64,000 bases of DNA from the NCBI RefSeq assembly GCF_001314995.1, contig NZ_CP012938.1:4960001-5024000 (forward strand). The letters run 5' to 3'. The position numbers and the translations under genes were made by a program. This document shows, one piece after another, positions 3,533 to 57,751 of this stretch. The notes beneath the pieces were generated by a model. The model saw only the letters and a list, made by a program, of their open reading frames with translations, searched no databases and had not been told where the DNA came from. The DNA comes from Bacteroides ovatus (GTDB lineage: Bacteria > Bacteroidota > Bacteroidia > Bacteroidales > Bacteroidaceae). The number at the start of each line of letters is the position of its first letter. The first letter of the stretch is position 1.

Positions 3533-3574
3533 ATTCCCATTTATATACTGAAAATGCCCTAAAAAGGGTATAAT

Positions 3575-3641: not shown

Positions 3642-3684
3642 CAGTGTGATTAAAAATAACTATGAACTGCAAAATGATGGAACC

Positions 3685-4998: not shown

Positions 4999-5005
4999 AA
5001 TAACA

Positions 5006-5515: not shown

Positions 5516-5649
5516 TATGAACTGAATCAATAAATAGAAGTGAAGCCAATGAAGAAAAAAAGCAGAAAAAGTAAAATGACGGGATGTCTGCACATCTTGC
5601 CGAGTCTTGAGAATAAAAATAATAATGTAAAAACCTCAGATTTAATTTC

Positions 5650-8886: not shown

Positions 8887-8898
8887 ATATTAAATAGT

Positions 8899-10635: not shown

Positions 10636-10662
10636 TAATAAAAACAAATAATTGTAAGTGAC

Positions 10663-12060: not shown

Positions 12061-12088
12061 TATGGACTTATATTCACCTTATAGTTAA

Positions 12089-13384: not shown

Positions 13385-13390
13385 TAGTTT

Positions 13391-22503: not shown

Positions 22504-22524
22504 TGACAATTAAAACTTTAAAAT

Positions 22525-25005: not shown

Positions 25006-25020
25006 GACATTCTATATAAA

Positions 25021-25082
25021 AAGTCCACGCTTTTGCATAAATAATGAGTGGAAAACAGATGTAAAAGTGTGACTTTTGTAAC
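25021..25082 (+). promoter_or_regulatory. HTCS-type operator and promoter of the SusC operon
   Basis: AAGTCCACGC (25021-25030) runs into TTTTGCATA (25031-25039) and ATAATGAG (25041-25048). ACTTTTGTAAC starts at 25072, the same 51-bp spacing as at 20741. The -7 is GACTTTTG, one base off consensus, as expected for an activator-dependent promoter. CACGCTTTTGCATA (25026-25039) is repeated exactly at 37981-37994. Confidence 0.65.
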
Positions 25083-25116
25083 ATCAAAAATGAAACAAAT
25101 TAATCAAGATAATACT

Positions 25117-28368: not shown

Positions 28369-28378
28369 TACTTGAAAA

Positions 28379-30454: not shown

Positions 30455-30470
30455 TTAATGGTAGGAAAAG

Positions 30471-32144: not shown

Positions 32145-32177
32145 TTGATCCTATACTTGTTAGGTATAAAGAATATC

Positions 32178-33482
32178 ATGAAGAATATTGTATTATCAAT
32201 TTTATTGATGAGTGCCTGTGCAATGATTTATGCACAGGCGGACTCATCGCCTTATCAGGCTATTGTAGCTGTTGATGGTAGTGGAGATTATAAAACGGTT
32301 CAGGAAGCAATCAATGCTGTACCTGACGGACAGACGAAACCTTGGTTGATTCTGATAAAGAATGGCTTGTATAATGAGCAGGTGATTATCCCTAAGAATA
32401 AGCCATACGTACATTTAATAGGCCAGGATAAGGATAAGACCATTATTCATTTAAACTTGAATGTTGGTAGTAAACTGACCGGTAAAGAAATAGGTGGAAA
32501 AACAGCTTATTGGGAACACTCGGTTCATAATCCTTCCTCTCCAGTTTATAAATACGAGGGATCGGTAGTGGTGGTAAAAGGAGACCACTTTTATACGGAA
32601 AACATTTCGTATGTGAATGACTGGGGAGTTTTATCAGATAATGGTCCGCAGGCTTTGGCTATGAATAGTCAGGCAGATTGTGCTTCCTTTTATAATTGTA
32701 AGTTCCGTTCTTTTCAAGATACTTGGATGACTGCCAATAATGATGTCAGTCGGCACTATGTGAAAGATTGCTGGATAGAAGGCGCGGTAGACTATTTTTA
32801 TGGTGGTGGTGATGTGTTGCTGGAAAACTGTACGCTTTATAATGTACGGAGTGGAGCAGTAATAGTGGCTCCTTCCCATAAAGATGCTAAATATGGTTAT
32901 GCTTTTCGTAATTGCACTATAGATGGAAACAGTGAAGCGGCTGACGGACGTTTGAAGTTGGGGCGTCCATGGCATAATAATTCGAAGACGGTGTATATCA
33001 ATACCATCATGCTTATCCCTGTCGCTGATGAAGGATGGACGAATATGGGAACGGTTCCCGGAATTTTTGCCGAATACAATAGTCGTGATGCACAGGGTAA
33101 TGTGTTGGATTTAAGTAAACGCAAAACGGAATATCAATATAAAGACCGCCAAACCGGTAAGGAAGTATCGGGTACCTGTCAGGCAACTATAACGAAAGAG
33201 GAGGCGGACAAATATACGTACGAAAATATGATTCCGGGTAATGATGGCTGGAATCCGCGTATTATGATGGAGAAATTAGGAAGTCCGCGCAGTCTGGTTT
33301 ATCAGCAAGGCACTCTTAAATGGAATCCTGTGAAGAATGCGATCGGATATATTGTATATGATGGAGAACAGATTCTCGGGACGACTACTGATACCTCTTT
33401 TCCGGTGTCGGAAGTGAATTATGCTTTGAAGGTATCTGCCGTGAATCAATATGGAACGCAAGGTAAAAAAGGTGTATTGTAA
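32178..33482 (+). CDS. Pectin methylesterase (CE8), secreted form
   Basis: 434 residues from ATG 32178, where a clear signal peptide (SILLMSACAMIYAQ) begins; an in-frame codon at 32145 is rejected. CE8 motifs: GDYKTVQEAINAVPDG, GPQALAMNSQADCASFYNCK, FRSFQDTW, IEGAVDYFYGGG and LGRPWH. It parallels the CE8 at 20884 but lacks the Ig domain and the lipobox, so it is probably periplasmic while the other is at the surface. A short FN3-like C-terminal domain (about 365-434) is shared by both. It ends 36 bp before the convergent HTCS gene. Confidence 0.93.
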   Translation: MKNIVLSILLMSACAMIYAQADSSPYQAIVAVDGSGDYKTVQEAINAVPDGQTKPWLILIKNGLYNEQVIIPKNKPYVHLIGQDKDKTIIHLNLNVGSKLTGKEIGGKTAYWEHSVHNPSSPVYKYEGSVVVVKGDHFYTENISYVNDWGVLSDNGPQALAMNSQADCASFYNCKFRSFQDTWMTANNDVSRHYVKDCWIEGAVDYFYGGGDVLLENCTLYNVRSGAVIVAPSHKDAKYGYAFRNCTIDGNSEAADGRLKLGRPWHNNSKTVYINTIMLIPVADEGWTNMGTVPGIFAEYNSRDAQGNVLDLSKRKTEYQYKDRQTGKEVSGTCQATITKEEADKYTYENMIPGNDGWNPRIMMEKLGSPRSLVYQQGTLKWNPVKNAIGYIVYDGEQILGTTTDTSFPVSEVNYALKVSAVNQYGTQGKKGVL

Positions 33483-33518
33483 TTGAATATAGAAAACTGG
33501 TAAGGAAAGGGGAGGTGC

Positions 33519-36500
33519 TTATGAGGCATCTCCCTTTCTTTCTTTATATTCTGTAGGAGTGACTCCCATGATTTTTTTGAAGCGCCTGCTAAAGTACTTC
33601 GGGTCATTGAAACCGGTCATATAAGCAATTTGGGAGAAACTGTATTCACTTTTTTCAATTAGCTGGGCGGCTCGTTTGATGCGCATTTCACATACGAAAT
33701 CTACCGGAGTCAGCCCAACAATGGATTTTAATTTTCGGTAGAATACCGTACGGCTTAACATTAGTTTGTTGGCGAAGTCGTCGATGGTGATATCTGTATT
33801 ATCCATTTGTTCCTCCATAAACGCCATTACTTGTTGCATGAATTGTTCATCGTATGGAGTCACTTGAGGTTGTGAAGGCTCCCACCCATTTATATGATCC
33901 TCTTCTTGAGTATGCTCTGACAGTTTCGATAAATATAGATCTTGTAGCTGTTTACGCTGACGGAGCAGCGACAAGATTCTGGTTTTTAAGTATGTAGAGC
34001 TGAATGGTTTGGTAATGTAGTCATCGATACCTTGTTCCAGTCCTGCTATCCGATCATCTAAAGAAGATTTTGCTGATAGTAATATAATAGGAATATGGCA
34101 GGTGTCATGATCGGCTTTGATTGCTTTCACCATGTCTAATCCATCCATGACCGGCATCATAACATCACTGATTATCAGATCCGGAATGTACTGCTGTGCA
34201 TATTTTAATCCTTCTTTTCCATTTGTTGCTTCGAGAACAGTGTAAGTCTCTGACAGGATATTCCATAGGAAATGACGTAATTCATTGTTGTCTTCGACAA
34301 TAAGAATGGAAGTTTTTTCATCCTCTGCGTCGGTTTTATTTTCATTCTCTGCGTATGCTGCCTTGAAGGATGTACTATCCGAATCTTCTTCAGTAGCTTG
34401 TATCGTCGGTGAATTATTGTCACTGTCGGATAAAATAAATTCGGTTTGTTGATCGTCTGCAAATGCTTTTTCTTCCTTAGGAAGTGTGACAATGAATTCA
34501 CTTCCACTTCCCGGCTCGCTTTTCACTTGGATATTTCCGTGATGTAATTCTATTAATTCGCGTACTAGTGAAAGCCCAATGCCGGATGAGGGCTGCAGGA
34601 TATTGTATTGTGCCAGTGTTTCAAATCGATAAAATAGGGATTGTTGCTTTTCGGGAGCAATGCCAATGCCTTCATCAGATACGGAGATGGTGACTTGCTC
34701 CGAACCTGTTATCATATTTACCGTTACTTTCTTCCCGTTCGGTGTATATTTGAAGGCATTTGAAAGTAGATTGAAGAATATCTTTTCAAATTTGTCACGG
34801 TCTACCCATGCGTATATTTTGTCTGTATTAGTTTGAAGTTGGAAATCAATTCTCTTTTCTTTTGCTATAAGGTGGAAGCTTTCCATTATCTTCTGTAATT
34901 GGGAAACGAGTTCTGTCTTTTCTACCAACACTTTCATCTTCTTATTTTGGATTTTGCGGAAATCCAGTAGTTGATTAACCAGACGAAGCATACGTTCTGT
35001 GTTTTTATGTACCAAATTTAGATGTTCCCGAACTGTCGGAGAGATTGCTTCATGCGCTAGAATTTCTGATACAGGGCTGGATATTAAAGTTAAAGGAGTG
35101 CGTAATTCATGTGAAATATCAGTGAAGAAACGCAGTTTGATATTGGATAAATGTTGTTCCAGATCAACCTGATGCCGCAAACGGTAGATATAGAACAGGA
35201 TGTATACAATGATAGTGGTGAATAAAACGAACATGACAATATAGAATAACCATGCCCAGTATGTTTCCCAAAAAGTGGGTAAAACATGAATGGGGAGAGT
35301 GCGTATATTATCGGTCCATACTCCGTCGCTATTGCTGGAACGGATTTGCAGTTGATATTCTCCGGCAGGTAAATTTATGTATGTTGCAGAGCGGTTATTA
35401 CCGGCTTCGTTCCATTCTTCTTCCAGGCCTTGCAGGCGATAGGCGTATTCGATGGCATCGGGATTTACATAATCAATGGCTGCAAATTGAAAGGTGACAT
35501 TACGTTCCGAAGGATTTAGTTCCAGTTCTTTTATGTCATCAAGCGCTACATGAAGTTGACTTCCTTGTATTTTGAGTCCGGTAAATACAATAGGAGGTAC
35601 ATAAGAACTTTTTTTCATTTGTTCTGTGTTGATTTCAAGTATCCCTTGATTGGTTCCGAGAACGATTTTCTTTTGACTGGTTAGTGTGGGAACTGCTTCA
35701 GTGAGATTCAGTTCTCTCTGAAAGTAATTACTTCCATAATTCTCAAATGTTCCTTGTTGTGGATTGAATTTGGATATGGAGTTTTCGGAGATTACCCATA
35801 ATTGTTTTTGAGTATCTTCGAGCATTGAAAGTACCAAATCGGAAGCTAATCCGTCTTTGATTGTATAACTTTTGAATTGTATATCTTCCGTGAGCAGATT
35901 TTTAGAGATAACCTGGCTGATTCCTCCGGTGAATGTTATTACATAAGTGTTTTTTCGACTGTCAGTAAATATCTGCATGACATCATTACTGCTAAGGCTG
36001 GAATCTACATTAGGGATACGGTTGCTGTGATAGAACTTAATTTCTTCAGGCTGATCGAACTTATTGGAGAATGTAAGTAAACCATTGGTTGTGCCAATCA
36101 ATAACACTCCGTTGGGGGCTTCTGCGATATGTCTTATTTTGAGTGAAGTAGAAACAGGATAGTTTTTCAGCCGGTTGCCGCTATGGATAAAGTTGGTAGA
36201 ACCATCAGGTGCGTGTGATAATAGGTTGAGGCCACCTCCATAACATGCGATCCATATATTGTCATGACTATCCTGAATAATACTATAGACACTATTGTTG
36301 CTTAAACTGTATGTATCTTGTGGCTGATGGACGAATTGTTGTAAAAGATAGGAGTGCTCATTTTTCTTCTTTAGAAGGATGAGGCCGTCTTTTTTGGTTC
36401 CCATCCATATATTTCCTTGTTTATCTTCCATAAAACAGTACACACTTTTTCCGAAAGTAACCTCTTGAGGGGTGATTATGCCCTGTGGAGAAAGGTAGCC

Positions 36501-37898
36501 TTCTAATGTCCCATCCGGACGGTAAATTCTGACGTTTCCCTTTTTGGAAGCAACCCAGAGACGTTTCTGTTTGTCGGCAAGAAAAGCACGTATTTCCAAT
36601 CCATTGTCTATGGGACGTATTCTGTATTTATTGGGATAGAAAGATATTTTGTCTACGCCCCGGTCATTGGTAATCCATACATTCTGTTGCCGGTCGGTAT
36701 AATAATAGCGAATAGAGGGGGCAAATAGGGAAGCGGGATTATTTTCATCTGCAAAGTATAGTTTCAGTTGATTACTGTCGCGGTCATAATAGCACAAATG
36801 CCCTTTTTGAGGACTCATCCATAGTGTGCCTTCATGGTCTTCAAAGATCATGTACCGGTTGTCGCGTTCATATTGGATTAGGTTTTGTATAGGAGCTGTG
36901 AAGTGCTGCTTATCTCCTGTTTTCAGATTTAGCTTTATCACACCGGAGGTATTGGCAAAGATCCAGACTTCTCCGGTTTTGTCCTGATAAAAGAAATGAG
37001 CTTCATTGGATGGCTGGGTGGCTGTTTGTATATTAAAATGTTGGAATTTTTTCTTTTCTGTATCGTATGTTATAAATCCGTTGTCAGTTCCTAAGCCGAT
37101 CTTGTCATTAGAAGGGGAAATGGAAGATATGGAATAGATATCTGTGACAGGACATGGTAACTCCTGGAATTTTATATTTCCGTTCTTGGGATCATATATT
37201 GCGATTTTTCCGGAAGTTGAGATAAGATATATTCTCTTATTATATTCTTTGACCATTTTGAACGGATAATCGCTGTTGATTCGTTTTTTCCCGATGATGG
37301 TTACTCCCTTATCTGTCATGATCCATTCGTCCCCGTCGGAATCTTCGTAAATGTCGAATATCTTGTTTCCTTTTAAATTTTGGTTGAAACTGCTGTATAA
37401 AATGATATCTTTTCCTTCTTTGCAGGTTTGCTCATTGATTCTGAAAGCATAACCTTGTTCGCAGGTGATCCATGTAATCCCTTTATTTAAGGTATAGATA
37501 TTGCTGACTGTGTTGGTCTGTTGCAGGGATGATTCAATAGGAAGGAGTATGTCAATAAACTTCTCTGTCTGAATATCAAATAGATATGCACGGTTATCAT
37601 AAGATTTGCACCATATATCTCCGTCTTTGCTTTCTGTAATATAAGAGAAACGGTTAGTCGTTAAAGTACAGCCGTCTCCCGGAAATGCTTTGTAATTTTT
37701 AAATGTGTATCCGTCGAATTTGTTCAGTCCATTCCAGGTGGCGAACCAAAGAAATCCTTTTTTGTCTTGCATTATATTCACTACTACTCCTTGCGAAAGG
37801 CCACTATTGACAGAGAAGTGTTTAATCTGGCAAAGAGGTTGAGCTGCTACAGTCAGACTGGTGTATAAGCATAAAAGGAAAACATAGAGTGTCTTCAT
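33519..37898 (-). CDS. Hybrid two-component system regulator (HTCS), complete (PUL-2)
   Basis: 1459 residues. Signal peptide (FLLCLYTSLTVAAQ); a periplasmic sensor of about 14 propeller repeats starting with HFSVNSGLSQGVVVNI; a Y_Y_Y domain (about 790-860); a TM helix (about 880-905); HisKA with His930 in DISHELRTPLTL; an HATPase (NAFKYTPNGKKV, DEGIGI, SGIGLSLVREL); a receiver with Asp1245 in ISDVMMPVMDG; and a C-terminal AraC HTH ending in FKKIMGVTPTEY. All catalytic residues are present. It lies beside GH28 and CE8 and should activate PUL-2 on sensing pectic oligosaccharides. A -7 element TATTTTTG on the minus strand (37922-37929) is 24 nt from the start. Confidence 0.96.
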   Translation of the reverse strand: MKTLYVFLLCLYTSLTVAAQPLCQIKHFSVNSGLSQGVVVNIMQDKKGFLWFATWNGLNKFDGYTFKNYKAFPGDGCTLTTNRFSYITESKDGDIWCKSYDNRAYLFDIQTEKFIDILLPIESSLQQTNTVSNIYTLNKGITWITCEQGYAFRINEQTCKEGKDIILYSSFNQNLKGNKIFDIYEDSDGDEWIMTDKGVTIIGKKRINSDYPFKMVKEYNKRIYLISTSGKIAIYDPKNGNIKFQELPCPVTDIYSISSISPSNDKIGLGTDNGFITYDTEKKKFQHFNIQTATQPSNEAHFFYQDKTGEVWIFANTSGVIKLNLKTGDKQHFTAPIQNLIQYERDNRYMIFEDHEGTLWMSPQKGHLCYYDRDSNQLKLYFADENNPASLFAPSIRYYYTDRQQNVWITNDRGVDKISFYPNKYRIRPIDNGLEIRAFLADKQKRLWVASKKGNVRIYRPDGTLEGYLSPQGIITPQEVTFGKSVYCFMEDKQGNIWMGTKKDGLILLKKKNEHSYLLQQFVHQPQDTYSLSNNSVYSIIQDSHDNIWIACYGGGLNLLSHAPDGSTNFIHSGNRLKNYPVSTSLKIRHIAEAPNGVLLIGTTNGLLTFSNKFDQPEEIKFYHSNRIPNVDSSLSSNDVMQIFTDSRKNTYVITFTGGISQVISKNLLTEDIQFKSYTIKDGLASDLVLSMLEDTQKQLWVISENSISKFNPQQGTFENYGSNYFQRELNLTEAVPTLTSQKKIVLGTNQGILEINTEQMKKSSYVPPIVFTGLKIQGSQLHVALDDIKELELNPSERNVTFQFAAIDYVNPDAIEYAYRLQGLEEEWNEAGNNRSATYINLPAGEYQLQIRSSNSDGVWTDNIRTLPIHVLPTFWETYWAWLFYIVMFVLFTTIIVYILFYIYRLRHQVDLEQHLSNIKLRFFTDISHELRTPLTLISSPVSEILAHEAISPTVREHLNLVHKNTERMLRLVNQLLDFRKIQNKKMKVLVEKTELVSQLQKIMESFHLIAKEKRIDFQLQTNTDKIYAWVDRDKFEKIFFNLLSNAFKYTPNGKKVTVNMITGSEQVTISVSDEGIGIAPEKQQSLFYRFETLAQYNILQPSSGIGLSLVRELIELHHGNIQVKSEPGSGSEFIVTLPKEEKAFADDQQTEFILSDSDNNSPTIQATEEDSDSTSFKAAYAENENKTDAEDEKTSILIVEDNNELRHFLWNILSETYTVLEATNGKEGLKYAQQYIPDLIISDVMMPVMDGLDMVKAIKADHDTCHIPIILLSAKSSLDDRIAGLEQGIDDYITKPFSSTYLKTRILSLLRQRKQLQDLYLSKLSEHTQEEDHINGWEPSQPQVTPYDEQFMQQVMAFMEEQMDNTDITIDDFANKLMLSRTVFYRKLKSIVGLTPVDFVCEMRIKRAAQLIEKSEYSFSQIAYMTGFNDPKYFSRRFKKIMGVTPTEYKERKGDAS

Positions 37899-37921
37899 GA
37901 TATTATAAATTATGTGTAGAG

Positions 37922-38067
37922 CAAAAATAGATAAAACTGGATTAAAAAGGAAATATAAAACCGTGATTGAACATAAAATGCACGCTTTTGCATATTTAAT
38001 CCACCTGTCTATCCTCTATCAAGCACAATTATTACCCTATAAGGAGAGAAGATACCTCGTACTTTTG
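37922..38067. promoter_or_regulatory. Divergent HTCS/GH28 control region with shared operator word
   Basis: Minus-strand -7 TATTTTTG (37922-37929) serves the HTCS. For GH28 the plus-strand -7 is TACTTTTG (38060-38067). CACGCTTTTGCATA (37981-37994) is identical to the operator part before SusC (25026-25039), and a second AATCCACC half-site lies at 37998-38005. Spacing to the -7 is longer than the 51 bp seen at the other two promoters, so regulation here may differ. Confidence 0.55.
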
Positions 38068-38110
38068 TTTTGACAATTAGAACTGGTAAAATTTTAAATG
38101 AAAACTATAA

Positions 38111-39652
38111 ATGAAACGTCTATTTATTTGTGTAGTGGGACTTGTTATAGCCGTAACCGCATGGTCTCGTACCTTTAATATGAAGGAGCTTGGAGCTGAT
38201 CCCCGAGGTATTGAATCTTGTACGGAGTTAATAAACCAAACGATTGAAAAAGCATCTTCTGAAGGTGGAGGAACTATTTATTTCCCGGCAGGTGTTTATT
38301 TGACAGCCACTATCCACATGAAAAGTAATATAACTTTGTATGTGGAGTCCGGAGCTGTTCTTCGTTTTTCAGATCGTTTTGAAGATTATCTTCCTTTTGT
38401 GAAGATTCGTTGGGAAGGTACAGTGATGAATACTTTGTCTCCCCTGATTTATGCGCATGATGCGGAGAATTTGACTATAACCGGGCGTGGAACGTTGAAC
38501 GGTAATGGATTCAAATGGTGGAGCTGGGAGAAAGAAACACGGGAGCTGATTAAAAAGAACGGAGGAAAATTGCCTGCTTTGAATAAACTACAACGAATGT
38601 GGGAAGAGGCTAATGAAGATCTGGAAATTTCGGATTATTATAAACCTTCTTTAGAGCGTCGTATGTTTCGGCCTCCTTTTATTCAGTTTTATGAATGTAA
38701 CAATGTGTTGATAGAGAATGTGAAAATTGTCAATTCTCCTTTTTGGACCATAAATCCGGCTTTTTGTGATAATGTAACAGTGCATGGAGTGACGATATAT
38801 AACCCTTCAAAAGACCCAAAAGGTCCCAATACGGATGGAATAAACCCTTCTTCTTGCCGGAATGTGCGTATTTCTGATTGTTTTATTAGTGTGGGGGATG
38901 ATTGTATTACAATTAAATCGGGGCGTGATGCTGATGGACGGAAATATGGAAAGGCATGTGAAAATATAACGATAACTAATTGTGTTATGCTTTCCGGTCA
39001 TGGAGGGGTAGTTATTGGTAGTGAAATGTCAGGCGGTGTAAGGAGAGTGACAATTTCTAATTGTGTTTTCGATGGTACGGATTCCGGTATTCGCTTGAAA
39101 TCTTCTCGTGGGAGAGGAGGAGTTGTTGAAGAGCTTCGGGTAGATAATATCGTCATGAAGAATATTCAGCGGAATGCCTTCATCTTTGATTTGTTCTATG
39201 ATAAAGAATCAAAAGTGGAACCTGTCAGTGAACGGACTCCTGTTTTCCGGAACATTCATTTGAGTAATATCACAGGTTCTGATATCAAGCAAATTGGTTA
39301 TATTAAAGGGATTGAAGAAATGCCTGTACAAGGTTTGTCCTTTTCAAATATTAATATGAAGGCAGAGGTTGGATTTATAGTTGATATTGCTGAGGATATT
39401 CGTTTTGATAATGTGGATTTCTCTTCGCAGACTGGTTCACCGTGGCAATTCAGTAAGTGTAAGCAGATTGTTCTGAATAATGTTAGATCGAAGTATCCTG
39501 TAAACCAACAACCGATTGTTACTTTTGAAGATGTCGATAATGCTATTATTAATAATTGTTTTCAGATGACTCCTGTGAAGGATTTTTATAAAGCTAATAA
39601 CAGTCATATTATTGAAGGACATAATTATTGGAAAAAAGAGAGTTTTAAATAA
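38111..39652 (+). CDS. GH28 polygalacturonase-family glycoside hydrolase
   Basis: 513 residues with a signal peptide (MKRLFICVVGLVIAVTAWS). A right-handed beta-helix with the four GH28 motifs: NTDGIN, GDDCI, GHGG and (R/D)-type GIRLKS. The catalytic Asp residues are in NTD and GDD. GAVLRFSDRFEDYLP and LTITGRGTLNGNG are typical of Bacteroides exo-acting members. It hydrolyses alpha-1,4-galacturonosyl bonds of de-esterified pectin, completing the PL1/CE8 set. It is transcribed divergently from the HTCS and ends at a strong bidirectional terminator. Confidence 0.93.
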   Translation: MKRLFICVVGLVIAVTAWSRTFNMKELGADPRGIESCTELINQTIEKASSEGGGTIYFPAGVYLTATIHMKSNITLYVESGAVLRFSDRFEDYLPFVKIRWEGTVMNTLSPLIYAHDAENLTITGRGTLNGNGFKWWSWEKETRELIKKNGGKLPALNKLQRMWEEANEDLEISDYYKPSLERRMFRPPFIQFYECNNVLIENVKIVNSPFWTINPAFCDNVTVHGVTIYNPSKDPKGPNTDGINPSSCRNVRISDCFISVGDDCITIKSGRDADGRKYGKACENITITNCVMLSGHGGVVIGSEMSGGVRRVTISNCVFDGTDSGIRLKSSRGRGGVVEELRVDNIVMKNIQRNAFIFDLFYDKESKVEPVSERTPVFRNIHLSNITGSDIKQIGYIKGIEEMPVQGLSFSNINMKAEVGFIVDIAEDIRFDNVDFSSQTGSPWQFSKCKQIVLNNVRSKYPVNQQPIVTFEDVDNAIINNCFQMTPVKDFYKANNSHIIEGHNYWKKESFK

Positions 39653-47599: not shown

Positions 47600-48172
47600 A
47601 TGATAGATGAAGATATTGAGCTTTATTCTCTTTTTAGAAAAGGAGATAGAAAGGCTTTTGATACTTTATTTTTGAAGTATTATTCCATACTATGTGCCTT
47701 CGGGAAGTACTATATTCCTATAGAAGATGCTGAAGAAGTTGTTTTGGATATCATGACATGGCTATGGGAAAACAGAGAATTCCAGATCATAGAAACTTCT
47801 TTGCGAAGTTATTTGTTTATGGCGGTCAGAAACAGATGCTTGGATTTAATAAGTAAGAATCAGACAAAAAGACGTTGTTATGAGCATATGTTTGCTAAAG
47901 AAATGCAGACAAGTTTTGAAGATCCTGATTTTTATGTAGTGGAGGAATTGATGGCGAAAATAGAAAAGGCCGTGATGCGATTGCCGGACTCCTATCGTAT
48001 AACTTTTGAGATGAGCCGTTATCAAGATAAAACATATAAAGAGATTGCGAAAGAATTAAACGTTTCCATAAAATTAGTGGAGTATCGTATCCAGCAAGCA
48101 TTGAGACTTTTACGTGTAGAACTAAAAGACTATTTACCGTTGATTACAATCATATTCCCTTATTTTCTCTAA
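47600..48172 (+). CDS. ECF-type RNA polymerase sigma factor (PUL-3)
   Basis: 190 residues from ATG 47600, preceded by AAGGAG, unusual in a genus that mostly lacks strong Shine-Dalgarno sites. Region 2 (YSLFRKGDRKAFDTLFLKYY, then RNRCLDLI) and region 4 (LPDSYRITFEMSRYQDKTYK, then EIAKELNVSIKLVEYRI) are complete. It is the Bacteroidetes SusC-linked type; the FecR anti-sigma encoded 119 bp on should hold it until the SusC signals that ligand is present. Confidence 0.93.
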   Translation: MIDEDIELYSLFRKGDRKAFDTLFLKYYSILCAFGKYYIPIEDAEEVVLDIMTWLWENREFQIIETSLRSYLFMAVRNRCLDLISKNQTKRRCYEHMFAKEMQTSFEDPDFYVVEELMAKIEKAVMRLPDSYRITFEMSRYQDKTYKEIAKELNVSIKLVEYRIQQALRLLRVELKDYLPLITIIFPYFL

Positions 48173-48203
48173 GGATAGCCGATTCGTTTTTGAGTCTTAA
48201 AAT

Positions 48204-48239
48204 AAAAATGCAGCTTTTAATTAAAAAAGTTGCATTTTT
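48204..48239 (+). terminator. Hairpin between sigma and anti-sigma genes
   Basis: AAAAATGCAGCTTTTAA (48204-48220) faces TTAAAAAAGTTGCATTTTT (48221-48239): a long imperfect stem that ends in a T-run. It is in the middle of the regulatory pair, so it would act as an attenuator that lowers anti-sigma and transporter expression relative to sigma. Confidence 0.6.
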
Positions 48240-48291
48240 GTTTAGGGGCTAATTGAAGTATTCCGTCTTCTTAATAAAATGAACATAAAAG

Positions 48292-49314
48292 ATGATGGAA
48301 TTACATGAAAATATAGATGAGGCTCTTTTACTCCTTTATTTTTCCGGTACACTAGGAGAGAAAGAAAAAGAAGAGGTAGAAAATTGGATTTCCCTCTCTG
48401 AAGAGAACAGAAAAATAGCTAAACAGATTTGTTACATACACCACGTAACAGATATAATAGATACCGTGAAGCAGATAGATCCTAAACAGGCATTGGTGAA
48501 GCTGGATAAGAGATTGTCAAAAAGGAAGAAAATAAACTGGTGGGAATGGGGGATAAGAGCAGCAGCTGTGTTATTTATTCCTTTATTCTTATCTTTCTTC
48601 TATTTTGTATTTAATCAAGATAAAAATTATGATCGTTATGTCGAAATTCGGTCTAATCCGGGGATGATGACAAAAGTGGAGTTACCGGATGGTACTTGGG
48701 TATGGCTGAATTCTGCTTCTTATCTAAAATATCCAGTGTCTTTTGAAGGAGAATATCGAAAGGTTGAATTGCTCGGAGAAGCTTATTTTTCAGTACAAAA
48801 GGATAATGGACGGAAATTCTTAGTCGATGTAGGAAAGGGGATTGAATTAGAGGTTTTAGGTACTGAATTTAACGTGGATGCTTATCCGGATGATAAGTTT
48901 GTAGCTGCTACTTTGGTGACAGGTAGAGTAAAATTCCATTGTCAGCAGAAAGGCAGGGAGGTTACTTATAGTATGCAACCCGGACAGAAGGTGATTTATA
49001 ATTTATTGGATGAGAAACTTTTGTGTACAACTACTTTTGTTGAATCTGATATTGCTTGGAAAAGTGGAAGGATCATTTATCGAGATACTCCTCTTGAAGA
49101 TGCTTTAAGAACTTTGAGCAAGCGTTTTGACGTAGAGTTCCGTATTGTTAATCCATTATTAAAGAAATATTGCTTTACAGGTACTTTTATTAATCAACGT
49201 CTGGATAAGATCTTGGAACACTTCAAAATAGCTTCAGGGGTGAGATACAGATATCTTGAATCGGCATTGGACAACGGTGTTGTGAAAGAGAAAACAATAA
49301 TAGAAATTTATTAA
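48292..49314 (+). CDS. FecR-family anti-sigma factor
   Basis: 340 residues (start 48292, or the second Met at 48295). A cytoplasmic N-terminal part (about 1-85) precedes one TM helix (about 88-107), then the FecR domain (RSNPGMMTKVELPDGTWVWL, LLGEAYFSVQ, VLGTEFNVDAY) and a C-terminal DUF4974/secretin-like part (IIYRDTPLEDALRTLSKRFD, FTGTFINQRLDKILEHF). It should bind the STN domain of the downstream SusC in the periplasm and release the sigma factor. Complete and of normal length. Confidence 0.94.
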   Translation: MMELHENIDEALLLLYFSGTLGEKEKEEVENWISLSEENRKIAKQICYIHHVTDIIDTVKQIDPKQALVKLDKRLSKRKKINWWEWGIRAAAVLFIPLFLSFFYFVFNQDKNYDRYVEIRSNPGMMTKVELPDGTWVWLNSASYLKYPVSFEGEYRKVELLGEAYFSVQKDNGRKFLVDVGKGIELEVLGTEFNVDAYPDDKFVAATLVTGRVKFHCQQKGREVTYSMQPGQKVIYNLLDEKLLCTTTFVESDIAWKSGRIIYRDTPLEDALRTLSKRFDVEFRIVNPLLKKYCFTGTFINQRLDKILEHFKIASGVRYRYLESALDNGVVKEKTIIEIY

Positions 49315-49355
49315 ACAAAAAAGAACTATGAAAACACTCCCTCCTTAAACAAAAA

Positions 49356-49389
49356 ATATGGGAAAAATATAGCACTATTCTTCCCATAT
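49356..49389 (+). other. Hairpin in the leader of the PUL-3 SusC gene
   Basis: ATATGGGAA (49356-49364) pairs with TTCCCATAT (49381-49389) around a 16-nt loop, 75 nt upstream of the SusC start. It lacks a T-run, so it is more likely an mRNA processing or stability element than a terminator. Confidence 0.45.
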
Positions 49390-49464
49390 AAAAAATCATT
49401 TAGCCTTACTTGTTTGCCGACAAGTGTAGTTAACTTTATTTTTAATTTAAATCACAACAAATTT

Positions 49465-52400
49465 ATGCAAAAACATTGTAGTATCCAAATTCTTGGGATT
49501 AAAAGGCTACTGAAAGCAACTTTAAAAGGAATTCCATTGCCTATGAGATTATTAATTATTATGCTATGTGTTTCGATAGGATGCATTCGTGCGACAAATA
49601 CTTATGCGCAAAATGCGATCCTTGACTTGAAAGTCAATAATCAAACGATTGAAACCGTCTTGAAAATAATAGAATCGCGGACTGACTTTGTATTCTTCTT
49701 TAACAGTCAGCAGGTTAATGTACATAAACGTGTCTCTATTAATGTCAATAAACAGAATATTTTTAAAATTCTAGATGAGGTTTTTAAGGGAAGTGACGTT
49801 GTTTATTCAGTGCTTGATAAAAGCATAATTTTGTCTAGTAAAAGATTTGCGCCTGATGGAAATTTGAAGAAGATTACAGGTAAGGTCGTTGATACGAACG
49901 GTGAACCGTTGATTGGTGTTACAATTGCTCTGAAAGGAAGCAATAGAGGAACGGTGAGTGATGTAAACGGAAATTTTTCTTTAAACGGAGAAGAAGGAAA
50001 GCTTAATGTGTTGAATATCTCATATATTGGTTATAAAGACCAACAGGTAAAAGTTGAGGATGGTAAAACTTTGATTATTACATTGGAAGAGGATACCAAG
50101 GTTTTGGAAGAAGTAGTTGTTGTGGGATATGGTACACAGAAAAAAATCAATTTGACGGGTGCTGTTGCTGTGGTTGACGATAAACAAGTAATCGGACGTT
50201 CGGCCGATAATTTGTCTAAACTACTTCAAGGAGCTGTTCCTAATATGAATGTTACTGTTTCTAACGGTCGTCCGGGACAGGGTGGTAGCATAAATATTCG
50301 TGGTATCAATTCTATCAGTAGTAGTGCCACGCCTTTGATATTAGTTGATGGTGTAGAAGGTACTATCGATGCAGTGAATCCCAATGATGTGGAGTCTATT
50401 AGTGTATTGAAAGATGCTTCTTCTGCTGCTGTATATGGGGCTCGTGCAGCTTATGGAGTAATTTTGGTTACAACAAAATCTGGTAATGATGATAAAACAC
50501 GTGTTTCTTATAACGGACGTTATAGCTTTGGCTCACCTACAGTTTCCAGAGATTTTGAGACTCGCGGTTATTATTCGGCGGCTATCAATGATATGTTTTA
50601 TTCTACCTATCAAGGTTCTAACTATACGAATTATAATGATGAAGATTATTATGAAATGTGGATCCGGCGTAATGATAAAACGGAAAATCCGGAACGACCG
50701 TGGGTGGTTATCAAAGATGGTGAATATAAATATTATGGTAACTTTGATTGGTATAACTACTTCATGGATGAGTCTCGTCCTACATGGGAACACAATATTA
50801 GTGTCAGTGGTGGCAATAAGAAAGTGCACTATTTCCTTTCCGGTGCTTATTATGATCAGAAAGGAGTTATTCGGAAAAATATGGATAGTTTCACTAAATA
50901 CAATTTCCGTTCCAAGGTAAGTATTGAGATTGCTCCATGGTTGAAGATAAGTAATAATACGTCATACAAAAAGGATTCTTATCCATTTCCGGGGCCAGGT
51001 GCTATTAACAATCTTTTTGATGCGATAAGTAAGCATGCCTTAGCTTCTATTGTTCCAATCAATCCGGATGGTACATATATGGGGAATGCAACAGTTATTA
51101 CAGGAGGATATCGCCCTGCTAATGATCTTAGTGCAATTCTTGAATACGGTAAACACAAGAATGAGGATACTAATTACTTTTTTAATACCACCTTTGAGGC
51201 GGTAATGACACCTGTTAAGAATGTAACGGTGACGGCTAATTATTCGTTTGCTCAACATGAATATACGGCAATGAATCGTAGTGCTAATTATCCATATTCA
51301 CGTGTACCCGGAGAAGTTCTTTGGAAAACAGATGGTTATGGCCTTAATACTCTTTATGAACGTTCTAATCATGATTGGTTTCATTCATACAATATTTATG
51401 GAAATTATACAAATACATTTGCCGATGTGCACCATGTAAGTGCAACTGCCGGTGTCAATTATGAAACTAAATTTTTTAAAGACATCAAAATACAACGTAA
51501 TGATTTATTGTCCGAAGATTTAACTGATTTTAATTTAGCTAATGGTGATGAAATGAGTATTGCGGGTGGTAAAAATAGATATGCTCTTTTCGGTCTTTTT
51601 TATCGTTTGAATTATGACTATAAAAATAGATATTTATTTGAATTTAGCGGACGCTATGATGGTAGTTCACGGTTTGCCCGGGGACATCGCTATGGCTTTT
51701 TTCCTTCAGTTTCTGCCGGGTGGAGAATTAATGAAGAAAAGTTCTTTGCACCATTACGTAAACAAATTAGTAATTTGAAATTACGCTTTTCTTTGGGAGC
51801 ATTAGGAAACCAACAAGTCGGATATTATGACTATTTGCAGACTATATCTTCTGGTGGTACAATTTCTTATGCTTTTGGTGATAAAAATAAAGCGTCAGGT
51901 GCTAGTATCTCTGCTCCGAATGCTTCTGATTTCACTTGGGAAACGGTTGTTACAAAAAATATCGGTTTGGATCTCGGACTATTGAATAATCGTTTGAATA
52001 TGACGGCTGATATATATGTACGTGATACGAAAGATATGTTGATGGCTTCCAAGGATCTTCCGAATGTATATGGTGCTTCTTCTCCAAAAACAAATGCTGC
52101 TAACTTACGTACGAAAGGTTGGGAAGCATCGATTAGTTGGAATGATTCTTTTAATCTAAAGGGAAAAGCGTTCCATTATTCTGTCGTACTAGGCTTGGCT
52201 GATAATACGACTAAAGTGACAAAGTATAACAATGATAACAAAACATTGGGCACTCCATATGAAGGACAACAACTGGGAGAGATTTGGGGATATGTTGTTG
52301 ATGGTCTCTTCAAAACTGATGAAGAAGCTGAAAACTATCCGGTAAATCAGAGTTACGTAAATAATATATTGAATATTTCTGTAAAATCTCAAGGTCTCCA

Positions 52401-53040
52401 TGCGGGGGATGTGAAATATGTGGACTTGGATGGCGATAATATTATTTCTCCTACTTTATCGGCAAACGATGTGAAGGATCAGAAAGTGATTGGAAATTCT
52501 TTACCAAGATATACATATTCTGTCAGATTAGCTGCAGATTGGAATGGAATTGATTTTTCTGCTTTGTTGCAAGGCGTCGGTCGCCAACATTGGTATCCCA
52601 ATGGTGAAACTAGTCTGTTCTGGGGTCCCTATGCCCGTCCTTATTGTACTTTTATTCCGAAGGATTTCTTGACAGATGTTTGGTCAGAAGATAATCCGGA
52701 TGCTTATTTCCCACGTCCGAGAGGCTATGTGGCATTGGATGTTAATCCACGTGAGTTGTCTAAACCTAATACTCGCTATTTGCAAAATGTGGCTTATTGC
52801 CGTCTTAAAAATGTAACAGTCGGTTACTCTTTGCCACGTACTTGGCTAAAGGCTTTGCATATGGAACGTGTCAGGGTTTATTTTAGTGGAGAGAATCTTT
52901 TTACATTCAGCCCTTTACATAGTAATTATATTGATCCGGAACATGCTGGGGCTTCTACGAGCTGGAAAAGTGGTCATACGAACGTGACTTCTTATCCAAT
53001 GAGTAAGACCTATTCATTTGGAATTGATGTGACTTTTTAA
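49465..53040 (+). CDS. SusC-family TonB-dependent transporter with STN domain (PUL-3)
   Basis: 1191 residues from ATG 49465; the earlier in-frame TTG at 49414 is not convincing. After a long signal region (ending near NTYAQ) comes the secretin/TonB short N-terminal domain STN (LKVNNQTIETVLKIIESRTD, about 50-110), then the carboxypeptidase-like domain (ITGKVVDTNGEPLIGVTI), LEEVVVVGYGTQKK, the plug and the barrel ending YSFGIDVTF. The STN domain is the contact for FecR, so this transporter is also the sensor of PUL-3. Its cargo is unknown. Confidence 0.95.
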   Translation: MQKHCSIQILGIKRLLKATLKGIPLPMRLLIIMLCVSIGCIRATNTYAQNAILDLKVNNQTIETVLKIIESRTDFVFFFNSQQVNVHKRVSINVNKQNIFKILDEVFKGSDVVYSVLDKSIILSSKRFAPDGNLKKITGKVVDTNGEPLIGVTIALKGSNRGTVSDVNGNFSLNGEEGKLNVLNISYIGYKDQQVKVEDGKTLIITLEEDTKVLEEVVVVGYGTQKKINLTGAVAVVDDKQVIGRSADNLSKLLQGAVPNMNVTVSNGRPGQGGSINIRGINSISSSATPLILVDGVEGTIDAVNPNDVESISVLKDASSAAVYGARAAYGVILVTTKSGNDDKTRVSYNGRYSFGSPTVSRDFETRGYYSAAINDMFYSTYQGSNYTNYNDEDYYEMWIRRNDKTENPERPWVVIKDGEYKYYGNFDWYNYFMDESRPTWEHNISVSGGNKKVHYFLSGAYYDQKGVIRKNMDSFTKYNFRSKVSIEIAPWLKISNNTSYKKDSYPFPGPGAINNLFDAISKHALASIVPINPDGTYMGNATVITGGYRPANDLSAILEYGKHKNEDTNYFFNTTFEAVMTPVKNVTVTANYSFAQHEYTAMNRSANYPYSRVPGEVLWKTDGYGLNTLYERSNHDWFHSYNIYGNYTNTFADVHHVSATAGVNYETKFFKDIKIQRNDLLSEDLTDFNLANGDEMSIAGGKNRYALFGLFYRLNYDYKNRYLFEFSGRYDGSSRFARGHRYGFFPSVSAGWRINEEKFFAPLRKQISNLKLRFSLGALGNQQVGYYDYLQTISSGGTISYAFGDKNKASGASISAPNASDFTWETVVTKNIGLDLGLLNNRLNMTADIYVRDTKDMLMASKDLPNVYGASSPKTNAANLRTKGWEASISWNDSFNLKGKAFHYSVVLGLADNTTKVTKYNNDNKTLGTPYEGQQLGEIWGYVVDGLFKTDEEAENYPVNQSYVNNILNISVKSQGLHAGDVKYVDLDGDNIISPTLSANDVKDQKVIGNSLPRYTYSVRLAADWNGIDFSALLQGVGRQHWYPNGETSLFWGPYARPYCTFIPKDFLTDVWSEDNPDAYFPRPRGYVALDVNPRELSKPNTRYLQNVAYCRLKNVTVGYSLPRTWLKALHMERVRVYFSGENLFTFSPLHSNYIDPEHAGASTSWKSGHTNVTSYPMSKTYSFGIDVTF

Positions 53041-53063
53041 TGGAAAATAAAAACTAGGATAAT

Positions 53064-54815
53064 ATGAGTAGTATAAAATATAAAATATGGATGCTCTTGC
53101 CTCTGATGGCAATGATTTCTTGTGAAAGTATTTTGGATAAATTTCCGGAAGATAAAATTACACCGGAAACATTCTTTACAACAGAAAACGAGTTAGAATT
53201 GTATTCAAACAATTTCTATGTCGCTTGTATTTCGGGTACAGGAGTGTTTAAAGATTACGGTGATGTAATTATTCAGCCTATCTTGGAAAAAGCGATTAGC
53301 GGGCAACGCACTATACCTGAAACAGATTCTAATTTCGATGGTTGGGGTTGGGGAGCCCTTCGTGATATTAATTTCTGCCTGGAGAACATTTATCGTTGCC
53401 AGAATGAGGAAGTACGGAATCATTATGAAGGTTTGGCACGTTTTTTTAGAGCTTATTTTTATTTTGTAAAGGTGAGGCGTTTTGGAGATGTGCCATGGTA
53501 TGATTATGTGATTGGAAGTGCTGATACGGAAGCTTTGAGTAAACCTAGAGATTCTCGTGAGTTTGTAATGGGGAAAGTATTGGAGGACATTGATTTCGCG
53601 ATTGATAATTTGAGAAAACAAAAAGATGTATACCGGGTGACTCGTTGGACTGCTTTGGCTTTAAAATCCAGAATTTGTTTGTTTGAAGGTACATTTCGAA
53701 AGTATCATGGTTTGAATGATTGGGAAAAGTATCTTCGTGAATGTGCATCCGCATCGGATATCTTTATCAATGAGAGTGGTTATACAGTTTATACGGCAGG
53801 TTCTACCCCTTATTTCAATTTATTTGGCTCTTTGAATGCTGAACCCACGGAAATAATCCTGGCGAAAGATTACAATGCAGCTTTGGGATTGACTAATATT
53901 GTACAGGCATTTTGCAATTCTCCTGGTGAGGCAAATTCAGGTGTGACAAAGCGTTTTGTTAATTCTTATCTGATGAAAGATGGTTCTCGTTTTACAGATA
54001 AGAGTAATTATGAGACTATTGGATTTGTGGAAGAGATGAAAAACCGTGATCCGCGTCTGACACAAACGATTCGTGCAGCAGGATATGTACGTGATGACGG
54101 GAAAAAATATCTGCCAAACTTTAAGTTGGCAAAATTAGGGTATCATCTGAAGAAGTACGATTGTGGAGTTAAATATGATATGTCTTCTGAATCTGATTTG
54201 CCATTGTTTCGTACAGCCGAAGTTTATTTGAATTGTGCGGAAGCAAAAGCAGAATTGGGGACATTGACTCAGGATGATTTGAATAAAACAATTAATAAGC
54301 TAAGGGCTCGTGTAAATATGCCGAATTTATTAATGGCAACAGCAAATGCTAATCCGGACCCTTATTTGAAGGAGTGGTATCCGCACGTGGAAAGTGACGA
54401 TAATCAGGGGATTATCCTTGAAATTAGACGTGAACGCGCTATAGAACTGGTAATGGAAGGCTTTAGATATTATGATATCATGCGTTGGAAGGAAGGTAAA
54501 ATATTTGAAAAACCATTTCTTGGTATTTATTTTCCCGGTCCGGGTGAATATGATTTGGACGGTGATGGAACGAATGATGTTTATCTGTATTTGAGTACTG
54601 ATAAAGGAAACTCTTCTTGTGTAGATCAGTTTGAGATAGGTGGTGAACTTAGCTTGGATCATGAGACAAGTGGTAATTTGATTATTCATCAAAGTATCAA
54701 AAGAGTATGGAATGAGGACAAGGATTACTTGTACCCGATACCAACAAAGGATCGTGTTTTAACAAATGGAGCATTAACGCAGAACCCGGGTTGGAATGAT
54801 GGACTTATTTTTTAA
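53064..54815 (+). CDS. SusD-family glycan-binding lipoprotein (PUL-3)
   Basis: 583 residues. Lipoprotein signal (LMAMISC). SusD pattern: ILDKFPEDKITPETFFTTENE at the start, YEGLARFFRAYFYFVKVRRFGDVPWYD, and EIRRERAIELVMEGFRYYDIMRW in the C-terminal half, ending QNPGWNDG. A DLDGDGTNDVYLY segment may bind calcium. It follows SusC by 23 nt and precedes the first NAGPA-family gene by 6 nt. Confidence 0.95.
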   Translation: MSSIKYKIWMLLPLMAMISCESILDKFPEDKITPETFFTTENELELYSNNFYVACISGTGVFKDYGDVIIQPILEKAISGQRTIPETDSNFDGWGWGALRDINFCLENIYRCQNEEVRNHYEGLARFFRAYFYFVKVRRFGDVPWYDYVIGSADTEALSKPRDSREFVMGKVLEDIDFAIDNLRKQKDVYRVTRWTALALKSRICLFEGTFRKYHGLNDWEKYLRECASASDIFINESGYTVYTAGSTPYFNLFGSLNAEPTEIILAKDYNAALGLTNIVQAFCNSPGEANSGVTKRFVNSYLMKDGSRFTDKSNYETIGFVEEMKNRDPRLTQTIRAAGYVRDDGKKYLPNFKLAKLGYHLKKYDCGVKYDMSSESDLPLFRTAEVYLNCAEAKAELGTLTQDDLNKTINKLRARVNMPNLLMATANANPDPYLKEWYPHVESDDNQGIILEIRRERAIELVMEGFRYYDIMRWKEGKIFEKPFLGIYFPGPGEYDLDGDGTNDVYLYLSTDKGNSSCVDQFEIGGELSLDHETSGNLIIHQSIKRVWNEDKDYLYPIPTKDRVLTNGALTQNPGWNDGLIF

Positions 54816-54821
54816 TTTTAA

Positions 54822-56687
54822 ATGGAGAAAATAATGAAAATGAAATATTTATATATGTCTTTTCTATTGGCGTTAGTCTATAGTTGTAGTGACTCTGGAG
54901 ATAATTCAGATTATAGCGAAATGTTGAAAAAAGATTTCAACCAAGAAATTAAATGGGATGTGGATTCATTGGCTCTTATGAGAGCATCTTGGGAAAAAAC
55001 GGATTTAGGTAACGGGGCAGCTGTTTGTACGGCACAAGCGAGCATGTGGGGGACTACCCAAAGCGTTTCTTATGTGGTATATCCGACGACTATGTTTTCT
55101 ACCAGAGTTGCTGTATGTGATACTCCTGCCAAAACTAGTATGATTGCTAAAGATAAAAAAGCATTGTTTGCTATCAATGGCAGTTATTCTATTTCCGGAA
55201 ATCCGTCTACATTTACTATGGTGGATAAGGTGGTGAAGGTTGCGTCTACGATCGAATCTGCCAGTAAAGTGAACGGAGTGATTGCTATTGATGCGGAAGG
55301 TTCTGTAGATGTGAAGTCTTGTACGTTTTCAGATTATACGGATGTGGAAGATGAATATGAATCAGCTTTAGCATCAGGTCCAATGTTACTTATGGAAGGG
55401 AAAGTGTGTTCGTTTCCTCAAGATGCTATTTATACACAACGTATGGCTCGGTCTGTGATTGGGATAACTGCTCAGGGAAAAATGATGCTGCTTACTATTG
55501 ATGGTGCTATAACGGGAAATGCTGATGGTGCAACACTTGAGGAGGCAGCTTTTATTGCCAAAACATTGGGGATGAAGAATGCGGTTTGTTTGGCTGACGG
55601 AAGTTCTTCCACGCTATGGACATCAGGTAAAGGCGTAGTGAATCATCCGGTTGGAAATGGACAGTATGATCATGAAGGCGAAGGTACAGTGTCTACTGTG
55701 ATCTATGTTGCAGCTTCTTCTTTATTTGACGGTGGTGATGGAACGGTTGATAATCCTTATTTGATTAGCAATAGGAATCATATGAGGAACATGATGTCTG
55801 TTGTAGAACTTGATAAAACTTATTATTTCGAAATGACGAATGATGTTGATATGACTGGCATTGACTGGAAACCGCTGAATACGGGTGAGCCTGTTGACCG
55901 TTTTGATATAAAGATTCATTTTGATGGTAAGGGACATACGATTAGAAATTTACATTGTGAGATCAGTTCTCGGTACGCCAGTTTCTTTGGGGTAATGAAT
56001 GGTTCATGTCGTAATGTGCGCTTTGAAAATGCGGAAGTTATTGGATATGGTTCTTCTTGTACGGGTATTGTTGCCGGTTATTTGGGAACAAATGCTTTGG
56101 AGTGTTTGATTGAAAATGTATATGTGTCTGGTACTGTAAGTGGCATACAGCAAGTGGGTGGTATTGGTGGCATTTTTGCTAAAGGTACTGTACGGAATTG
56201 TTATGCAGATGTAAAAGTAATCGGGGCTTCTCGTGCCGGTGGTATTGTTGCTGAACCAAGGAATGCTGTAGTTGTTGAAAACTGTTTTGCGACAGGAACT
56301 CTTTATAGTACAGGAAATGCAGGTGGTATTGCCGGAGGACTTAATGGCAATAATCCTACAATAAAAGGTTGTATCGCTTGGAATGAACAGATTGATGGTG
56401 AACCTGTATCAGGACGTGTTATTGGATGGCAGTCAAATACCTATACGAAGGCTACGGATTGTTATGCGAAAAAAGATATGATTATCGCATGGGGACCCAA
56501 CAAAGGTATGACGGGGGCCGATGCTAATACTGCCGGAACTTATGATTGGGGTAACAATAAAACTGCAATTTGCCATGGTATTACTACGGAAAATAGTGTA
56601 GATGCTGCTAAGAAAATAGGTTGGTCTACAGATATATGGGATCTTTCAGGCGTAACTCCATTATTGAAATCTTTTAATGATAAGTAA
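54822..56687 (+). CDS. NAGPA-family (DUF2233) lipoprotein fused to a GLUG-type beta-solenoid
   Basis: 621 residues (start 54822; Met codons at 54834 and 54840 are alternatives). Lipobox at LVYSC. Residues about 60-300 match the phosphodiester-glycosidase (NAGPA/DUF2233) domain: FAINGSYS, ALASGPMLL, ARSVIGITAQGKMMLLTIDG, and LADGSSSTLW near 265. The usual loop here is DGGGSSTM, so the glycines are partly replaced. Residues about 315-600 are a repeat domain of GLUG character (VSGTVSGIQQVGGIGG, ATGTLYSTGNAGGIAGG). The family includes the human mannose-6-phosphate uncovering enzyme, which cuts a sugar from a phosphodiester. Substrate here unknown; the solenoid may bind glycan or another surface protein. 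Confidence 0.82.
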   Translation: MEKIMKMKYLYMSFLLALVYSCSDSGDNSDYSEMLKKDFNQEIKWDVDSLALMRASWEKTDLGNGAAVCTAQASMWGTTQSVSYVVYPTTMFSTRVAVCDTPAKTSMIAKDKKALFAINGSYSISGNPSTFTMVDKVVKVASTIESASKVNGVIAIDAEGSVDVKSCTFSDYTDVEDEYESALASGPMLLMEGKVCSFPQDAIYTQRMARSVIGITAQGKMMLLTIDGAITGNADGATLEEAAFIAKTLGMKNAVCLADGSSSTLWTSGKGVVNHPVGNGQYDHEGEGTVSTVIYVAASSLFDGGDGTVDNPYLISNRNHMRNMMSVVELDKTYYFEMTNDVDMTGIDWKPLNTGEPVDRFDIKIHFDGKGHTIRNLHCEISSRYASFFGVMNGSCRNVRFENAEVIGYGSSCTGIVAGYLGTNALECLIENVYVSGTVSGIQQVGGIGGIFAKGTVRNCYADVKVIGASRAGGIVAEPRNAVVVENCFATGTLYSTGNAGGIAGGLNGNNPTIKGCIAWNEQIDGEPVSGRVIGWQSNTYTKATDCYAKKDMIIAWGPNKGMTGADANTAGTYDWGNNKTAICHGITTENSVDAAKKIGWSTDIWDLSGVTPLLKSFNDK

Positions 56688-56731
56688 TGATACGAATAGG
56701 GAATCTATATGTTTATTTAAAAAATTATATT

Positions 56732-57751
56732 ATGAAGTTTACGAAGTTAACAATTGCTTTTTTATCCGTATTTTTTTGTCTAGTTGTCGCTTGTGGAAGT
56801 GATGGGATCAATGATGACCCCAAAACACCGGATGTTACAGAGCCGGTAACACCAAATGAACCGGACGAACCGGACAACCCTTCCGTTGTAAAAGTTCCGA
56901 CTCTACAGAAGAATGTCCAAGATGAATGGAAAATTGATTCTATCGATGATGGTTTTATTTATTATAACTATGAACGGTATGACGATGTGAGTAAGGCTCA
57001 ACAGATTGTAAATGTGCTGGAAATTGATTTACTTTCCAATAAGTACAAAGTTGAATTTACATATAATAATGGAGATTCTCTTTCAACTACAGCACAAGTA
57101 CGTGGGGCTATTGGTGGTATTAATGGTGGGTATGAACAGGAAGCTATTTATATTCGTATCAATGGAACTAATATCTCTGAAGTGACACTACCGGAGGGAC
57201 ATTTACGATACTGGAAACATGATGGTGCGCTTTATTCGGATGGAAAATCTGATATTGGAATTATATATGGCGGCAGAAATGGAAAGGCTGCAATTGATAC
57301 ATATAAACAACATTCTGCAAAGTATTTGTTAGCTAGTGCCCCCACACTGATTGACGATTACAATCCGTTAGGTGAAACTTTTGTTGGTAATTATACTATG
57401 GAACAATTGGAGTCTTTTGACTATGAAGATTATCGCAGACATCAAGGAGTACGTCATCCTCGTACGGTGGTTGCTGTGACAGAGGATAAAGATTTGTTGT
57501 TAGTCACTATTGATGGGCGCTGGGCTGGTAAGGCGGAAGGTATGAGCGCAAAAGAAGTAACCTTATTCCTCAAAAAGCATTTCAATCCTCAATATGCACT
57601 TAATATGGATGGTGGTGGATCTACTACTATGTATGTGAAGGGGAAAGGAGCGGCAAAAACAGATGTTGTCAATTATCCTACTGATAATGGAGTCTTTAAC
57701 CACTATGGACAACGTCGTGTAACAACTCATATTATAGTAAAAAGAAAGTAG
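56732..57751 (+). CDS. NAGPA-family (DUF2233) phosphodiester glycosidase lipoprotein
   Basis: 339 residues from ATG 56732, which begins a lipoprotein signal (FFCLVVAC); the in-frame codon at 56687 overlaps the previous stop and gives no signal peptide. After a Pro/Glu/Asp-rich linker (about 30-65) the single NAGPA domain shows GAIGGINGGY, ASAPTLIDD, HPRTVVAVTEDKDLLLVTIDG and the canonical loop NMDGGGSTTMY. It therefore looks more clearly catalytic than its neighbour. It is the last gene of PUL-3 and ends at a strong terminator. A B. ovatus DUF2233 protein has a known structure (from memory); whether this is that protein I cannot tell. Confidence 0.85.
   Translation: MKFTKLTIAFLSVFFCLVVACGSDGINDDPKTPDVTEPVTPNEPDEPDNPSVVKVPTLQKNVQDEWKIDSIDDGFIYYNYERYDDVSKAQQIVNVLEIDLLSNKYKVEFTYNNGDSLSTTAQVRGAIGGINGGYEQEAIYIRINGTNISEVTLPEGHLRYWKHDGALYSDGKSDIGIIYGGRNGKAAIDTYKQHSAKYLLASAPTLIDDYNPLGETFVGNYTMEQLESFDYEDYRRHQGVRHPRTVVAVTEDKDLLLVTIDGRWAGKAEGMSAKEVTLFLKKHFNPQYALNMDGGGSTTMYVKGKGAAKTDVVNYPTDNGVFNHYGQRRVTTHIIVKRK

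Follow-up and report, generated by a model that had tools for sequence, protein, structure and literature searches.

Six open reading frames (ORFs), all on the forward strand between positions 47600 and 57751, form the locus described here. It lies in a stretch of 64,000 nucleotides from Bacteroides ovatus (assembly GCF_001314995.1, contig NZ_CP012938.1, positions 4,960,001 to 5,024,000), hereafter called the window, and the host genome is a single contig of 6,472,489 bases. The genes specify an extracytoplasmic function (ECF) sigma factor, a FecR-type anti-sigma factor, a SusC transporter with an STN domain, a SusD lipoprotein and two NAGPA-family proteins, ORF5 and ORF6 (Table 1). This is the gene set of the original prediction, and domain matches above cut-offs bear it out.

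The susC and susD genes are separated by 23 bp, the adjacency expected of a SusCD polysaccharide utilization locus (PUL), and the three elements of ECF-sigma/FecR trans-envelope signalling are all present: the sigma factor, a FecR protein with its FecR_C domain, and an STN domain on the transporter. This gene order is that of the ECF-sigma/FecR-controlled SusCD loci of Bacteroides, from which the window locus differs in having no carbohydrate-active enzyme (CAZyme). A PUL is further expected to encode at least one glycoside hydrolase (GH), polysaccharide lyase (PL) or carbohydrate esterase (CE). As had been predicted, none of the six proteins matched a GH, PL, CE or sulfatase model of Pfam or NCBIfam at E ≤ 0.001. 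The set is bounded by argR, which lies on the opposite strand, and by rhaK, so it extends no further. The mechanical call opens susC at a TTG codon, the true start probably being a later ATG.

Table 1. Coordinates and supporting matches of the six genes of the locus
Gene product	Position	Strand	Evidence and remarks
ECF sigma factor	47600..48172	+	TIGR02985, 147 bits (cut-off 126.4); mechanical ORF opens at GTG 47579
FecR-type anti-sigma factor	48292..49314	+	PF04773 and PF16344 (FecR and FecR_C)
SusC/RagA TonB-dependent transporter, N-terminal STN signalling domain	49414..53040	+	TIGR04056, 909 bits (cut-off 368); PF07660 STN, 42.3 bits (cut-off 28.4)
SusD lipoprotein	53064..54815	+	SusD_RagB PF07980, 153 bits
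ORF5, lipoprotein-like, NAGPA fold and GLUG beta-helix	54834..56687 (mechanical start 54822)	+	PF09992, 95.7 bits (cut-off 25)
ORF6, lipoprotein-like, NAGPA fold, signature intact	56732..57751 (mechanical start 56687)	+	PF09992, 82.2 bits (cut-off 25)

The two NAGPA-fold proteins

ORF6, which passes the PF09992 cut-off and shows the NAGPA fold, is a predicted phosphodiester glycosidase and the sole predicted enzyme of the locus. It keeps the N-x-D-GGGS loop and the arginine of the family signature (N306, D308-S312 and R259). Both loop and fold match those of vertebrate NAGPA, the mannose-6-phosphate uncovering enzyme (PDB 6pku, 6pki and 6u11), at just 16-20% identity. The vertebrate protein is a lysosomal-targeting enzyme without transport partners, unlike its SusCD-linked counterpart in the window.

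The N-terminal part of ORF5 likewise has the NAGPA fold, and its C-terminal half is a GLUG beta-helix, as judged from a predicted model and a fold search (TM (template modelling) score of 0.72 to 3ohg, by target length); the protein also matches PDB 3n6z at E 6e-35. Its loop reads C-x-A-DGSS in place of N-x-D-GGGS, and D308 is retained in one of 15 ORF5-type proteins and in none of six further ones. The motif survey left out four of the 175 NAGPA-labelled proteins (E of at least 1e-15) and 49 proteins labelled by their beta-helix; the alignment sets were picked by hand, A1 holding 19 of 120 proteins listed among 1,213 relatives and A2 16 of 96. From these sequence features ORF5 is predicted to be a binding pseudo-enzyme, so that, of the two NAGPA enzymes originally proposed, one remains and the other is probably a pseudo-enzyme.

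A second SusCD-NAGPA operon occurs in the same genome (locus L029). One of its proteins (L029:7407-8390) matches PDB 3ohg (BACOVA_00430 of B. ovatus) with full identity across 284 residues, which places the genome in B. ovatus, very probably strain ATCC 8483. ORF6 shows about 22% identity to 3ohg in structural alignment. As in the window, FecR, SusC and SusD are followed by two lipoproteins of NAGPA fold, but this operon also encodes a BACON protein, DUF6528, GH3 and a metallophosphoesterase, and no GLUG module was seen in its NAGPA proteins (326 and 327 aa), unlike in ORF5. In a 2013 paper in the Journal of Biological Chemistry on BACOVA_00430, the bacterial protein is said to be weakly active on GlcNAc-P-mannose. 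A different pairing of NAGPA with phosphoester chemistry at the surface is found in the ShfP family, where an excerpt of PMC11488536 describes NAGPA domains fused to calcineurin-like phosphoesterase domains in surface proteins; there it is a domain fusion without SusCD.

Related operons and their partners

At E ≤ 0.001, 1,213 of 2,804 candidates in the protein collection are relatives of ORF6. When genome contigs were searched, ORF6 alone gave no match and an alignment query gave 79 named loci, which derive from the best 80 of 223 relatives and thus stand closest to ORF6. Among them are Sphingobacterium, Pontibacter, Parapedobacter, a metagenome-assembled genome of Alistipes and Phocaeicola vulgatus ATCC 8482. 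Among the 64 loci counted, those with at least 7 kb upstream (15 had less than 7 kb), SusC and SusD lie upstream on the same strand in 42, and a sigma factor or FecR is visible in 19 of these. The survey for SusCD-NAGPA pairs that had been suggested thus finds similar gene sets in many Bacteroidota, and the set is a recurrent kind rather than a single oddity. Judged from listings, no published description of such a locus was found in open-licence papers. To that extent the statement that no PUL with this activity is known stands uncontradicted, but the locus has a companion in its own genome and many counterparts elsewhere.

SusD-NAGPA linkage in this genome exceeds chance. Five of its eight NAGPA genes sit at most 4.5 kb downstream of a SusD gene (112 of 114 SusD matches used), positions that make up 7.8% of the genome; counted by separate loci, the figure is three of five (binomial P about 0.004). 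A PF09992 match of any kind was found in 53 of 119 genomes of the genus; the genus loci are a subset of these matches chosen by hand, and the mechanical ORF filter missed some NAGPA ORFs visible by tblastn (e.g. L067). In several Bacteroides an orphan gene of the NAGPA family is flanked by housekeeping-type genes, with SusCD not directly upstream (L031:8790-9650, with counterparts in L032, L033, L036 and L037).

Eight Sphingobacterium operons show the order sigma, FecR, SusC, SusD and then a single NAGPA protein. In these, and in two Chitinophaga proteins, an ORF6-like NAGPA domain with intact loop and an ORF5-like beta-helix are joined in one polypeptide of ~680 residues. The same-strand run stops at the NAGPA gene in four of the eight (L072, L074, L075 and L080), continues with just an ORF of ~120 aa in two, and with further unannotated genes in the remaining two (L073 and L076). 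By hand count, the beta-helix is fused to the NAGPA gene or lies in the same run in 24 of 36 SusCD-linked operons at named loci. Fusions and shared runs alike indicate that ORF5 and ORF6 form a pair. In a tree from which three of 214 sequences were removed for coverage, ORF6 and the fusions form a clade of 33 with a support of 0.94.

Phosphoesterases of several kinds accompany related SusCD-NAGPA operons, namely alkaline phosphatase (L034, L172, L182), metallophosphoesterase (L029, L030, L118, L139), histidine phosphatase (L123, L200), GDPD (L152) and Exo_endo_phos (L144, with L099 and others by similarity). NAGPA lay downstream of SusD in 62 of 143 loci tested, giving 36 clusters exclusive of the window operon. 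A phosphoesterase is present in 17 of these 36, versus 6 of 34 random B. ovatus SusCD operons treated by the same method (p 0.008; 17/37 and p 0.010 with the window operon added), where the control comes from a single genome, the test set from many, and the comparison seeds from both sets. Six of 40 control loci yielded no SusD run, and the partner set covers all of 96 proteins but three short ones of 122-132 aa. The enrichment is modest. Other partners in related operons are GH3, GH20, GH97, GH123 and GHL10.

Three operon types recur. The first, seen in several Bacteroides, has SusCD, DUF5018, NAGPA, GHL10/DUF4985 and a metallophosphoesterase (L030:712-8091, about 370.7-378.1 kb of this genome). 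The second, also from Bacteroides (L035, L167, L172, L174, L182), has SusCD, NAGPA, a BACON protein, NAGPA and alkaline phosphatase, usually with a sigma factor or FecR; L182 also encodes GH123, a hint of N-acetylhexosamine in its substrate. In the third, mostly from rumen Bacteroidales (L099, L116, L126, L135, L140, L144), an Exo_endo_phos-like protein (by Pfam in L144, by similarity in the others) accompanies SusCD and NAGPA proteins of ~710 residues.

Proposed function and substrate

We consider it somewhat probable that the locus is an accessory, self-inducing SusCD import system for a glycan with sugar-1-phosphodiester links. The ligand would be held by SusD and by the beta-helix/pseudo-NAGPA protein ORF5, ORF6 would cleave the bond between sugar C1 and phosphate, and SusC would import the product, while its STN domain, acting via FecR, would free the sigma factor and so raise expression of the operon; the leftover phosphate might be taken off by a phosphatase encoded elsewhere. 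We infer the surface location, the bond cut, the binding role of ORF5 and the direction of signalling alike. The phosphodiester chemistry of the original prediction is supported by the fold and signature of ORF6 and, modestly, by the phosphoesterase partners of related operons. The window locus itself encodes no phosphatase, and such chemistry is read there from the family, the fold and the signature, to which the neighbourhood adds secondary support.

Several observations weigh against this function. A single enzyme could hardly break down a complex polymer, and 22 of the 64 counted loci have no SusCD upstream. The NAGPA domain of ORF5 falls outside the clade of ORF6 and the fusions, so that ORF5 and ORF6 are not simply two halves of a split fusion. 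When one repeated operon type is collapsed, the phosphoesterase enrichment shrinks to 13/31 versus 6/34 (p 0.030; 13/32 and p 0.036 with the window), and PF00149 is nearly equal among partners (8/93 NAGPA, 5/88 control). No phosphoesterase was found in the window locus or in the nearest operons with a visible neighbourhood (clusters L067, L068 and L071); the Sphingobacterium cluster likewise has none. A family search of the 9 kb downstream of SusD found a phosphoesterase for 11 of 109 SusD genes genome-wide, but for none of the three that precede NAGPA in this genome. Pfam does detect one in L030, and one in L029 with the domain starting just beyond 9 kb from SusD; the genome-wide control thus undercounts, and we rely on the same-method control of 6/34.

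To our knowledge, few PF09992 members have a measured activity, and the family name is based on few assayed members. ORF6 might accordingly use its NAGPA fold to hydrolyse some other bond (an ordinary O-glycoside, or a sugar-peptide or lipid link), and the locus might be a conventional PUL with its remaining enzymes encoded elsewhere, as the GH3, GH20, GH97, GH123 and GHL10 of related operons would also suggest. We think this unlikely: loop and fold match the vertebrate enzyme, phosphoesterase partners exceed the control, and half of the Sphingobacterium operons end at the NAGPA gene. Less probable still is a small sugar-1-phosphodiester target, such as a nucleotide sugar, a glycerophospho-sugar or a glycolipid head group, for which one glycosidase would be enough. 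The single predicted enzyme and the GDPD partners of some related loci would suit it, as would the hydrolysis of UDP-GlcNAc ascribed to vertebrate NAGPA in an excerpt of PMC12024695, but the presence of ORF5 and SusD points to a larger captured ligand, and in this genome GDPD also follows SusD where NAGPA is absent. A role in envelope or capsule turnover or in competition is improbable: an accessory gene set at a variable site and the orphan NAGPA genes of the genus speak for it, but nutrient importers usually have just this build of SusCD, STN and FecR/sigma, and no biosynthesis cluster was found in the locus.

Phosphomannan is acted on by CcMan5-type enzymes. Excerpts of Martens 2011 (PMC3243724) report very poor growth of B. 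ovatus on alpha-mannan, no growth on mucin O-glycans, and hybrid two-component systems as regulators of most identified plant-glycan PULs. Going by that report, yeast phosphomannan was set aside as first choice and is the least likely of the substrates originally named, and mucin O-glycans were likewise dropped; a plant glycan was judged less likely. By elimination, a microbial phosphoglycan would fit best for the import system proposed here, most likely a teichoic-acid linkage or sugar-1-phosphate polymer, a capsule or lipopolysaccharide.

More tentatively, such loci may form an undescribed CAZyme-free SusCD class across Bacteroidota. Its targets would be glycans with sugar-1-phosphodiester links made by other microbes (teichoic-acid linkage units, sugar-1-phosphate capsules, phosphorylated lipopolysaccharide). 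An ancient lineage of NAGPA proteins in this class would have given up the catalytic loop and taken on glycan binding at the surface, as partner of the active enzyme. PULs are usually detected and interpreted through their CAZymes, a method that a recurrent CAZyme-free type escapes. Given the similar sets in many Bacteroidota, the locus may mark an overlooked nutrient class, and bacterial and fungal phosphoglycans would then feed gut and environmental Bacteroidota alike. The pseudo-enzyme beside its active relative is a concrete candidate binding protein.

Chromosomal site and neighbouring loci

The argR-rhaK interval is variable and the locus is accessory. In three sibling genomes (L251-L253) argR lies within ~0.7 kb upstream of rhaK and the PUL is absent; in four more (L276-L279) the interval holds several unrelated genes (three genomes) or one sizeable ORF (one genome). 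A function shared with the neighbouring rhamnose operon is unsupported, as argR and rhaK adjoin without the PUL or flank other genes. Among 60 relatives searched beside this genome, none has a full-length ORF6 match above 34% identity; the protein collection contains a 79% relative, named B. congonensis. The cargo at this site in L276-L278, judged by eye, resembles a peptide-maturation/export cluster.

The window contains two further PULs. One, at 78-14680, comprises a hybrid two-component regulator, SusCD, a Big_2/DUF4979 protein, an alginate-lyase-like protein and an AXE1 esterase. The other, at 20884-39652, is of pectin type, with pectinesterases, GH95, SusCD, DUF4957/DUF5123, a hybrid two-component regulator and GH28.
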